DNA from: Polaribacter sp. HaHaR_3_91
Lineage (GTDB): Bacteria > Bacteroidota > Bacteroidia > Flavobacteriales > Flavobacteriaceae
Assembly (NCBI RefSeq): GCF_019278525.1
Contig: NZ_CP058986.1
Coordinates: forward strand, 1,770,001-1,834,000
Direction of reading: 5' to 3'
DNA length: 64,000 bases
Part shown: positions 44,393 to 47,945 of the stretch, piece after piece
Layout: each line of letters opens with the position of its first letter
How positions within the stretch are numbered: position 1 is the first letter of the stretch
Made by a program: the position numbers and the translations under genes
The notes under the pieces: model-generated
What the model saw: the letters and a program-made list of their open reading frames with translations, nothing else
Databases searched by the model: none
What the model was told of the DNA's origin: nothing

Positions 44393-44443
44393 GTTAATTA
44401 TTAAGAAATAAGTTCTTTTAACGATTGGGGAATCTTTATTAGA

Positions 44444-44520
44444 AGCCATTTCCTGCTTTCCGTTATATCTTTTTGTAAAAAACAAAAAGGATGTCACTTC
44501 AATCAGGGCTAGACTTGTTT
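44444..44520. repeat. dispersed intergenic repeat, copy 1
   Basis: A 77-base block that recurs about 870 bases further on with around 80% identity or better. The middle, TTTCCGTTATATCTTTTTG, TAAAAAAC and AAAAA, is identical in both copies. It contains the small hairpin CTTTTTG/CAAAAAG and terminal AGCC/GGCT complementarity, so it is probably a structured non-autonomous element. Confidence 0.75.
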
Positions 44521-44703: not shown

Positions 44704-45060
44704 TTATTTAAACTCTATTATTTCTGCAGTCATAGTTGCTGAAATTCTTTTTTTTGTTTCAATTAAATCAACAGATACATTAACAAGAGCTCTACTACCT
44801 ATTAATTCTACACCTGCAGCTTTTGCATCTTCTAACATTTTTGCTTTAGCTCTAGCGATAATTCCTACTTTATTTGTGATGTTTCCTGTCAATATTTTTT
44901 CTGTAACAGTACCAGTAAAACTACCTAATACGTTAAAATTAGAACTTGATAAGATTGTTTGAGTTTGATTTTGTTGTTGATAACCACCACTATAAAGGCT
45001 AGATGTTTTGCAAGAGGTTAGTGCTGCAGCAATAACCATGATAAAAAAAGTTTTTTTCAT
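44704..45060 (-). CDS. small predicted lipoprotein, DUF6567-like
   Basis: A 118-residue protein with a lipoprotein signal (FFIMVIAAALTSC; lipobox L-T-S-C, Cys at 17) and a mature domain of predicted alpha/beta type (GSFTGTVTEKILTGNI, RAKAKMLEDAKAAGVELIGSRALVNVSVD). This is the pattern of the DUF6567 lipoproteins of Bacteroidota, whose function is unknown. It is flanked on both sides by copies of the same dispersed repeat. Confidence 0.78.
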   Translation of the reverse strand: MKKTFFIMVIAAALTSCKTSSLYSGGYQQQNQTQTILSSSNFNVLGSFTGTVTEKILTGNITNKVGIIARAKAKMLEDAKAAGVELIGSRALVNVSVDLIETKKRISATMTAEIIEFK

Positions 45061-45443
45061 TTAAGAAATGTTATATAATTATGCCTACTTCTTTTTTAAG
45101 TCTTTTTTCAGCTTGTTCAGACGTAATTTAAATATGATTGATTCACTATTTTAATTTTCTAAAATTACTTTAATTCTTTAAATTGAGACTACGGTTTTCC
45201 GTAATTTTATTTAACATTTTGTGAAATATTAGACCTATTTGTATGGTTGATTTTTAACTTTAAGTAGTGATAGTATAAGTACACATAATTATTAAACGAA
45301 ATTAGTTTTTTGGGAGCTATTTGCTACTTTCCGTTATATCTTTTTGTAAAAAACAAAAAAGATAAACTTTAATCAAGGCTGGACTTGTTTACCTGGTTTA
45401 GGTTAATTTATTAACTTTTAATTAAATATTTAATTTTGTTATC
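45061..45443. other. intergenic stretch of 383 bases with a repeat copy
   Basis: Between the small lipoprotein and the RloC-like gene. It contains the second copy of the dispersed repeat and otherwise only A+T-rich sequence without a plausible gene or RNA. No convincing promoter for the lipoprotein gene was found. Confidence 0.6.
45315..45390. repeat. dispersed intergenic repeat, copy 2
   Basis: A 76-base block in the same orientation as the first copy, sharing the CTTTCCGTTATATCTTTTTG core and the ATCA(A/G)GGCT(A/G)GACTTGTTT end. It ends about 50 bases downstream of the RloC-like gene's stop. Confidence 0.75.
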
Positions 45444-47753
45444 CTAATTTTCACAAACTTCAATCATTTCTTTGTAATGAATTTCGTCAATTTCTTTAAT
45501 TAGATCCAAAATATCTTTTATAACATTGGAACCTTCGTCCAGTTTGTTGTCAGAGGAATCATTATCAAAGTCCTGTGCGTGAGAATATTTGTTTATAAAA
45601 CGATAGATATATTCTTCTTTGTCTTTAAATGATGTTTTTTGAATCCCTTTTTGTAATAATTGTCTAAAATCACCTAACCTTTTAGGGTGTTTGAATTTTA
45701 GAAAAGTTTCAAGTATTTTTCTAGAAGCATTTGCAGATAAATAGGCTTTGTCTAAATCTAAATGAGTGTCATTGGAATAAGTTATTAGTTTTTTAAATAA
45801 GTAATGATATTCTGAGGTATATTCTAAGAGAGTAGGGTCTGCATCTTTAATATAAGAAAAACGCATTTGATTAGTATCAAAATTCGATTCTATTGAGTAA
45901 ATATTACATATGGTTTCTGGTTTAGTAGGGTCTTTTCGGTGTTTCTTATTTTGGTTTTTATTTTTGGTTTCGAACCAATCTCTTACAAGTCTGTAATAAT
46001 TGAAATTATGTGTTAATATAAATAATTGCTTAGCTTCATTGCAATTTAGTTTTAGGTATGAATACGAACTAAATAAATTATTCGAATCAAAACTTGAAAT
46101 TGGGTCGTCAACTATTATGGTTGTATCTTTTATCTTATTGTCTTGTTCTAATATTTTATTTATAAAATAAACAAAAGCTATTGCGGTTTTTTCTCCTTCA
46201 CTTAATTGATTCCCGTTTGTGTTAGGGTTTCCATTTCTTTGTAACTTATAACCTCCTTTTTCTTGTGGATCTAAAGCTATATCTTTTCTTCCTAAGAATT
46301 TACATAAATCATTATTAAACTTGGTAGCCCCCAGAGCTTCCGTAGAAATTAATGAATTCAATTGTTTTATATCGATTTTTATTTTTTCAAGTTCTAATTG
46401 AAGTTCCTTGTTTTTTTGAATAGTAAGTAGTTCAATGTTTTTTTGCTTATAAAAATCATATCTTTTAATTTCATCTTTAATGTACTCAATTTCAAGATTA
46501 TTCTTTGCCTCTTGTATAATTGTCGAAGCACTTAAATATTTTTTATTATGGCTTTTAATTATTTCTGTTGCCTTTTTATAAAACTTAATTAAATCGGTTT
46601 CATCAAAATTTAAAACTGAAGTTTTAGGAATTTCAAATGGATTTGATACCTTAGTTTTAAGTATTTCTTTCCATTTGTCAAGTGCTTTTATTAGTTTTTC
46701 ATTCTCAAAATCAATGTTCTTTTTAATTTCCTCGTATTCAGATTGATATTCTTTATAAAGTGCTTTGTAAGCTGGTAATTCTGTTATTTTTAGTTCATCT
46801 ATCCAAGTAATGGCTTTAGATAGTTGTTCTTGTAGATTTTTGAAAGAATCACTAAAATGATTGTTTAAAATAGAAAGACGTTGTTTAGAGATGTTGTTTC
46901 CACAAAAAGCACAATTTTCTTCGGCTTTATGCAGTTCAAGTCCTAATTTAACCCAATCAGATTTTTTAAAATCATTCTTTAAACCATCAATAACTTCTGA
47001 TGTTATTTTTAAATTTAATAATGAAATTATTTGTTTATAGCCAGAAGGTATTTGAGATAAAACTGAAAAGTCAGGTGTTTCAATTCTATCTTTGTCTTGT
47101 GGCTTTATAGTTTGAGCTAACTTTTCAATTTCTTTATTAGTCAATGAAGCTTTTCTAATATTATCTCTATTTTTATTTAAAGAACTTTCAATTTTTGTTT
47201 TATTGTAATTAGACAAGTGTTTGTCTTCAACCTCAATTAATTGAAACTTTTGTTTAATATTTTTTGCAGATTCTGATAGGAAATTACTGTTGTTTCTTAT
47301 TAATCCTTTGTTTCCTTTCTTTTCTCCGTTAAGTATTAATTCATTTTGAGTTATCGACGAACTAATTTTTGATTCTTCTTTTTTCTTATCCTTTAGTTTT
47401 AATATTTCTTCATTTTTATCATTTGAAACGACAAGAATTCCTTTAATTGTATCGTTCCAATTAATGTTACGCTCTATAAAATCAGCATTGAAAACTTTAA
47501 TATTAAAATCATTTTCAAATTTGTCTGATTCGGAATAAATTTTTCCGCCTTTTTCAAAACTCCATTTTGAATCTGGAAACCTAGATATGGATTCATTTGA
47601 TTCAATTAAAGAAAATAAATGAGATATTGTTGACTTTCCACTCCCATTTAATCCGTAAAATAGATTTAGTTTATTAAAATCACTATATGTTGGGTTACTT
47701 TCTATTTTTTTGAATATTCCAAAATTTGATACTCCTTTAATTTTCTCAATCAT
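45444..47753 (-). CDS. RloC-like AAA/ABC ATPase with zinc hook and HEPN-type anticodon nuclease motif
   Basis: A 769-residue SMC/Rad50-like ATPase. Walker A is FYGLNGSGKST (34-42), followed by coiled coil, a central C-x2-C zinc hook in NCAFCGNNIS (C281, C284), more coiled coil to about 470, the ABC signature QLSEGEKTA (517-522), Walker B TTIIVDDPISSFD (544-555) and the H-loop ILTHNF (H582). After the ATPase comes a helical tail with R678-x3-E682 in SRKILETF and H725 in NKYSHAQ. This fits the R-x3-E...H catalytic triad of the tRNA anticodon nucleases PrrC and RloC, and the length matches RloC. RloC cuts out the tRNA wobble base and is regarded as a phage-exclusion or stress toxin. No restriction-modification genes adjoin it. 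Nuclease activity is inferred. Confidence 0.8.
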   Translation of the reverse strand: MIEKIKGVSNFGIFKKIESNPTYSDFNKLNLFYGLNGSGKSTISHLFSLIESNESISRFPDSKWSFEKGGKIYSESDKFENDFNIKVFNADFIERNINWNDTIKGILVVSNDKNEEILKLKDKKKEESKISSSITQNELILNGEKKGNKGLIRNNSNFLSESAKNIKQKFQLIEVEDKHLSNYNKTKIESSLNKNRDNIRKASLTNKEIEKLAQTIKPQDKDRIETPDFSVLSQIPSGYKQIISLLNLKITSEVIDGLKNDFKKSDWVKLGLELHKAEENCAFCGNNISKQRLSILNNHFSDSFKNLQEQLSKAITWIDELKITELPAYKALYKEYQSEYEEIKKNIDFENEKLIKALDKWKEILKTKVSNPFEIPKTSVLNFDETDLIKFYKKATEIIKSHNKKYLSASTIIQEAKNNLEIEYIKDEIKRYDFYKQKNIELLTIQKNKELQLELEKIKIDIKQLNSLISTEALGATKFNNDLCKFLGRKDIALDPQEKGGYKLQRNGNPNTNGNQLSEGEKTAIAFVYFINKILEQDNKIKDTTIIVDDPISSFDSNNLFSSYSYLKLNCNEAKQLFILTHNFNYYRLVRDWFETKNKNQNKKHRKDPTKPETICNIYSIESNFDTNQMRFSYIKDADPTLLEYTSEYHYLFKKLITYSNDTHLDLDKAYLSANASRKILETFLKFKHPKRLGDFRQLLQKGIQKTSFKDKEEYIYRFINKYSHAQDFDNDSSDNKLDEGSNVIKDILDLIKEIDEIHYKEMIEVCEN

Positions 47754-47945
47754 TTAATTTAGTCTTATTTCGAGTTAGATTATAATTTCGTTTTAGCTTA
47801 AGTATTGGCTAAGACTTAATTTAAATACAAACTATCACAAGTAAGCTAAGTTAATATTTTTAAATCAAAATGGGATTAGGAATAACACCTGTTTTATGTT
47901 GAAATAAACTAATAAGAGCTCATATATCAAAACATTTCAACCAAA

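Follow-up and report, generated by a model that had tools for sequence, protein, structure and literature searches.

An RloC-type protein, probably a horizontally acquired anticodon nuclease, at a variable yidC-rlmL interval of Polaribacter sp. HaHaR_3_91

What kind of protein is encoded between yidC and an rRNA methyltransferase-like gene of Polaribacter sp. HaHaR_3_91 is the question raised by the stretch of 64,000 nucleotides analysed here (NZ_CP058986.1, positions 1,770,001 to 1,834,000; hereafter the window). An earlier note, made from the sequence alone, had proposed that the 769-residue product is an RloC-like anticodon nuclease, a candidate orphan in a housekeeping block. Judged from its sequence, the gene (rloC) is an ordinary RloC, a new member of a known and characterised family, and the proposal appears right in substance, agreeing with every sequence-level test that applies. 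Very probably it is a horizontally acquired, stand-alone RloC, which would cut tRNA with its HEPN tail when triggered by DNA breaks.

The window protein is matched by the Pfam family PF13166 (AAA_13) over residues 11-749 (E=2.4e-125) and by the PADLOC family PDC-S06 over residues 1-766 (E=1.7e-160), and a search of NCBIfam gave no useful match (best E 0.016). RloC is presumably COG4694. As described in PMC2610378, RloC is recognised by shared ABC motifs and by an ATPase interrupted by a coiled-coil/CX2C insert, and is given a C-terminal motif Arg-x3-Glu-x36-52-His, often with Ser preceding the His, and a length range of 658-897 residues. The window protein has every one of these published sequence features (Table 1), including a length within the range and 42 residues between E682 and H725, with S724 directly before the histidine. 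The zinc-hook cysteines belong to the only C-x2-C of the protein (C281-AF-C284) and sit between predicted helices at residues 262-274 and 290-299, in an insert that is mostly helical in the predicted model (residues 114-274 and 290-469); likewise, N675-AS-R678-KIL-E682 is the only N..R...E in the protein.

In the RloC of G. kaustophilus, compared here by its published description, the corresponding residues are R692, E696 and H737 with hook cysteine C291; the source also relates that Ala at any triad residue abolished in vivo cleavage and that hook mutations raised activity (PMC2610378). Divergence is the only difference found from the G. kaustophilus and A. baylyi proteins, compared by description rather than by direct alignment; neither organism is among the names of the best 80 of 137 homologue loci.

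Conservation among homologues supports the assignment. A protein search in which 7996 candidates were scored gave 138 homologues at E<=0.001, the best 120 of which were listed, and the first alignment (A1, 118 rows) contains the query and 117 of these 120, three fragments (P0033, P0050 and P0083) having been excluded. C281 and C284 are its sole invariant columns, and linchpin histidine H582 (LTHN) is kept in 117 rows. R678 is arginine in all 116 rows that have a residue there, E682 is glutamate in all but five (four aspartate, one glutamine), and H725 is histidine in all but one (an asparagine), so that the homologues do keep the R-x3-E...H triad on which the earlier proposal depended. The two cysteines and the triad are jointly present in 110 of the 118 rows, with an E-to-H spacing of 36-52 in 96 of the 110 and of 28, 35, 61 or 66 in the others. 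As a control, the conservation of each residue was ranked against others of its kind in the query: among the 18 arginines R678 ranks first, and E682 and H725 each rank second, among 66 glutamates and 12 histidines respectively; the median values for Arg, Glu and His are 0.31, 0.28 and 0.58. The conservation of the hook and triad residues is therefore not due to chance, and the ABC-type ATPase, mid-coil C-x2-C, R678-x3-E682 and H725 reported from the sequence alone prove exact in their numbering as well as conserved in A1.

A second set, drawn from the best 80 of the 137 loci and four same-genus loci (one a duplicate), gave an open reading frame match at 81 of 84 loci, of which 74 have C-x2-C, R, E or D, and H; among the seven exceptions, L028, L049, L061 and L062 are without aligned tail residues, and L079, L081 and L084 differ or are gapped. 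The alignment made from this set (A2) excludes L014 (the same locus as L002), L075 (a long end), and L081 and L084 (no match at the His position), the last two exclusions biasing its counts towards conservation. Apart from the key residues, conservation of the tail is low, with a mean column identity of 19% in A2. Some homologues (e.g. P0021, P0024 and P0027, 55-56% identical) have been named 'wobble nucleotide-excising tRNase' by the Joint Genome Institute.

The other known anticodon nuclease to be considered is PrrC of the E. coli EcoprrI locus, which resembles the window protein in its ABC-type ATPase and R-x3-E...H nuclease tail. However, PrrC proteins are 341-416 residues long (PMC2610378), whereas the window protein has 769 residues and a hook; PrrC genes are described as hsd-linked (PMC2610378; PMC3874168), whereas the 10 kb to either side of the window gene gave no Hsd match; and PrrC is absent from the 12 PADLOC families that match the window protein at E<=1. 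Membership in PrrC was rejected, as size, hook, gene linkage and profile all fail. The match to PDC-S06 is full-length, but that library gives a candidate label without a mechanism, and the protein is read here as RloC.

The predicted C-terminal fold is related to HEPN, as the earlier proposal would have it, the best structural alignments of the modelled tail being with HEPN RNase toxins. It differs from HEPN-MNT (HepT), Csm6, Las1 and others in that HEPN toxins paired with MNT are small separate proteins, whereas the HEPN domain of the window protein is fused to an ATPase. The arginine of the R-x4-6-H usual in HEPN RNases would be R718 (R718-x6-H725), but position 718 is K in 62 and R in 41 of the 116 ungapped A1 rows. 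Searches of the PDB returned AriA alone, weakly, with the single sequence; AriA, Rad50 and SMC heads plus coiled-coil noise with a profile; and nothing convincing with a profile of the tail (best E 0.15). The tail had no match at E<=0.001 in a viral structure library, and one scan of viral contigs found no relatives of the protein.

The full-length model resembles the ATPases of SMC, Rad50, Lamassu and retron I-A, and these fold matches, together with weak PADLOC matches to LmuB (7.5e-8, best stretch 115-598) and mad3 (8.2e-8, 10-584), could be taken to indicate an SMC-like ATPase that repairs or restricts DNA, of the Rad50/SbcC, Lamassu LmuB or MADS kind, and has no RNase activity. Such a protein is extremely improbable here, since the LmuB and mad3 stretches stop short of the HEPN region, whose R, E and H rank among the best conserved residues, and since residues 640-769 follow the ATPase and carry the conserved triad, whereas, according to PMC2610378, Rad50 and SbcC lack such a tail. 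A Rad50/SbcC or Lamassu-type DNA-acting protein was rejected on the same conservation of tail residues.

By analogy with characterised RloCs, the window protein would sense DNA ends, cleave tRNA and serve in defence. The Rad50-like ATPase head and zinc-hook coiled coil would detect the ends of double-strand breaks arising from genotoxic stress or phage attack, and ATP turnover would release the C-terminal HEPN RNase, whose R678, E682 and H725 would serve to cleave one or a few tRNAs around the wobble base, or to make an excision there, halting translation and limiting infection. A DNA break inducer activates the A. baylyi RloC, which then acts on tRNA-Glu and tRNA-Gln, and this response is the same in hsd mutants (PMC3874168); the stand-alone, DNA-damage-triggered shut-off suggested in the earlier note thus coincides with the published RloC model, and would extend to the window protein by analogy. 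One paper counts RloC as a defence system, by listing alone, in 17 of 263 strains (PMC12322248). The targets of HEPN RNases vary, RNase LS and LsoA cutting mRNA (PMC3710099), and with the tail as poorly conserved as it is outside the key residues, tRNA specificity is not readable from it; a protein of RloC architecture whose HEPN tail cuts mRNA, rRNA or another tRNA site instead of the anticodon is nevertheless unlikely, as triad spacing, Ser-His, hook and size all match RloCs presented as proven anticodon nucleases in PMC2610378. The window RloC leaves existing knowledge of anticodon nucleases unchanged.

Whether it acts alone or with a restriction-modification (R-M) system can be approached through the genome, which has HSDR_N genes at 391 (with an EcoR124_C domain), 992 and 3737 kb of the 4.2-Mb chromosome, the window gene being at 1815 kb. 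Each has beside it an HsdM-type gene (two above the TIGR00497 cut-off, the third below it but with N6_Mtase and HsdM_N) and a putative HsdS gene (genes adjoining HsdM were taken as HsdS, and one was confirmed by Methylase_S). These three type I systems, and an interaction in trans suggested for RloC in PMC2610378, would allow the protein to act mainly with one of them, like PrrC with EcoprrI, but this is very unlikely: no type I R-M system is near 1815 kb, and activation of the A. baylyi RloC is unchanged in hsd mutants (PMC3874168).

That no R-M genes adjoin the window gene, in contrast to PrrC, was correctly observed in the earlier note, but the oddity it implied does not stand. Only eight of 72 RloCs are placed at a type I or III R-M locus in PMC2610378, and a scan with the HsdM, HsdS and HsdR of this genome as queries found an Hsd match near at least 9 of 85 family loci and near 5 of the 54 loci of 15 kb or more; the first figure is a minimum, the flanks being 10 kb or less, often limited by contig ends and shorter for L003-L005, and the 85 include distant matches, perhaps not all of them RloC. 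With Hsd matches at so few loci, orphan status is the rule for RloC.

A second RloC-like protein of 759 residues is encoded elsewhere in the same genome (C1:2991293-2993572, + strand; L103:7294-9573), with residues C269-PF-C, N663..R666-x3-E670 and S710-H711. It also matches the PADLOC PrrC profile (1.5e-10) and lies downstream of a 517-residue P-loop protein that weakly matches STAND NTPases; the region contains three identical gene pairs, which we take to resemble IS3-type transposases. Having two such proteins, the genome could serve for a comparison of RloC in the presence and absence of R-M partners.

The distribution of the gene points to its acquisition. Among 166 same-genus genomes at least 10 have a match, and above 37% identity only two, this genome and G112 (58% identical); among 397 genomes of the family at least 9, own included, match at E<=1e-30, the other eight being 28-32% identical. 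For the wider family both counts are minima, since no more than 6 and 2 candidates, respectively, were scored in each genome; the single-protein search of this genome missed the second RloC-like copy, which was found via the Pfam family. Proteins 94, 90 and 89% identical to the window protein occur in records named Polaribacter, Cellulophaga and Aquimarina, respectively. Because proteins 89-94% identical are found in other genera, as against 58% in the nearest same-genus carrier, recent transfer between genera would be the simplest account of them. For comparison, YidC is 76% and the rlmL-like protein 82% identical between G112 and this genome. The finding contributes a marine flavobacterial RloC for which a clear case of acquisition can be made. 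In G112, rloC has a different address (L118:8652-14414), where it is followed after about 90 bp, in the same orientation, by mfd, the gene of the transcription-repair coupling factor.

Table 1. Features of the window RloC and of its surroundings (positions in the window; counts refer to rows of alignment A1).
Feature	Position	Strand	Remarks
rloC	45444..47753	-	769-residue RloC-type ABC-ATPase / zinc-hook / HEPN protein; ATG start; PF13166 and PDC-S06 matches
Walker A region, residues 32-42, FYGLNGSGKST	47628..47660	-	G39 and K40 in 114/118, other 4 gapped
Zinc-hook motif C281-A-F-C284	46902..46913	-	118/118
ABC signature, residues 516-521, QLSEGE	46191..46208	-	S518 and G520 each 117/118
Walker B / D-loop, residues 546-556, IIVDDPISSFD	46086..46118	-	D549 and D550 each 117/118
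C-terminal part, residues 600-769, predicted HEPN fold with R678-E682-H725 triad	45447..45956	-	
R678-x3-E682	45708..45722	-	R 116/116, E 111/116 ungapped
S724-H725	45579..45584	-	S 113/116, H 115/116 ungapped
DUF6567 small protein gene (118 residues)	44704..45060	-	PF20205 E=4.4e-13; between rloC and rlmL-like gene
Approximate cassette not shared with nearest relatives	45269..47936	.	Homology breaks versus G007/G051; edges approximate
Flavo-1 RNA (RF01705), first dispersed repeat	44445..44514	-	73.7 bits, gathering 42
Flavo-1-like second copy, inside cassette edge	45316..45384	-	37.8 bits, below gathering 42

The flanking genes were identified as stated in the earlier note: yidC is above the cut-off of its NCBIfam model, and the putative rRNA methyltransferase has THUMP, RlmL_1st and UPF0020 domains, its best NCBIfam model, RlmKL, being below cut-off, so that 'rlmL-like' is the right name. 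The interval between them is not simply the housekeeping block it was called, its content in close relatives being other genes, among them defence candidates, or nothing. Convergent rlmL-like and yidC genes, separated by about 0.1-6 kb, occur in at least 16 genomes, own included (judged by eye among the matches listed). Long homology to G007 stops at about 47937 on the yidC side of rloC and restarts, towards DUF6567, at 45268 (96% over 359 bp), and that to G051 stops at about 47933 and restarts at 45130. The DUF6567 protein is 100% identical in G007, 96% in G051 and 92% in G086, the gene staying while its neighbours change and so serving as a marker of the slot. In G051 (YidC 98% identical) about 420 bp separate yidC from DUF6567, with no RloC and no open reading frame of 70 residues or more between them. 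In G007 (YidC 96% identical) the place of rloC holds two genes, a candidate defence pair, with PADLOC matches to PDC-M37A (4.9e-115) and PDC-M37B (2.7e-153, also DolB 1.2e-27) (L095:3297-5313). The interval of G097, which lacks DUF6567, holds a 1173-residue DdmD match (PADLOC 9.7e-52) followed by a 664-residue partner (L107:2563-8065), which had no Pfam, PADLOC or NCBIfam match and is possibly a divergent DdmE-like protein. Other intervals are nearly empty or contain an AraC regulator and DUF417, a flavodoxin and HxlR, or an iron alcohol dehydrogenase, and it follows that the slot is generically variable.

A strong PADLOC match lies between the outer genes in 3 of the 16 intervals; the scan excluded the open reading frames of G042, G050, G051 and G071, the iron-alcohol-dehydrogenase-like genes of G010 and G077, and small or shadow open reading frames. 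On its own, a PADLOC match does little to prove a role in defence: recQ in the window matches DpdF (7.4e-189), and the rlmL-like gene matches mad2 (8.3e-15). The intervals, few as the genomes are, are suggestive of a variable slot that holds other defence candidates in some relatives, and the slot is a place to seek further defence genes there. Literature searches found no paper on the yidC-DUF6567-rlmL slot among titles and abstract openings. Tentatively, it may be a small exchange site for defence genes in the clade of the host, where a self-contained, R-M-independent RloC cassette passing between marine Flavobacteriaceae genera might replace PDC-M37A/B or DdmD and its unnamed partner without a dedicated integrase, perhaps by recombination via the conserved flanks and Flavo-1 repeats.

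The dispersed repeats noticed beside the gene are real, and are Flavo-1 RNA elements, a common genomic feature and not part of the nuclease. The direct repeat copies extend over 44435-44520 and 45306-45390, and at least 45 places in the genome, both window copies included, match the repeat (40 of 122 candidates scored), some of them halves of one element. Ten of the 15 relatives' rlmL-yidC intervals hold one or two Flavo-1 above cut-off. In the window and in these intervals, Flavo-1 mostly lies 3' of the rlmL-like gene at a distance of less than 200 bp, on the opposite strand. Several of the places in the genome consist of two half-matches with about 60-100 bases between them, which would fit an element with a variable middle.
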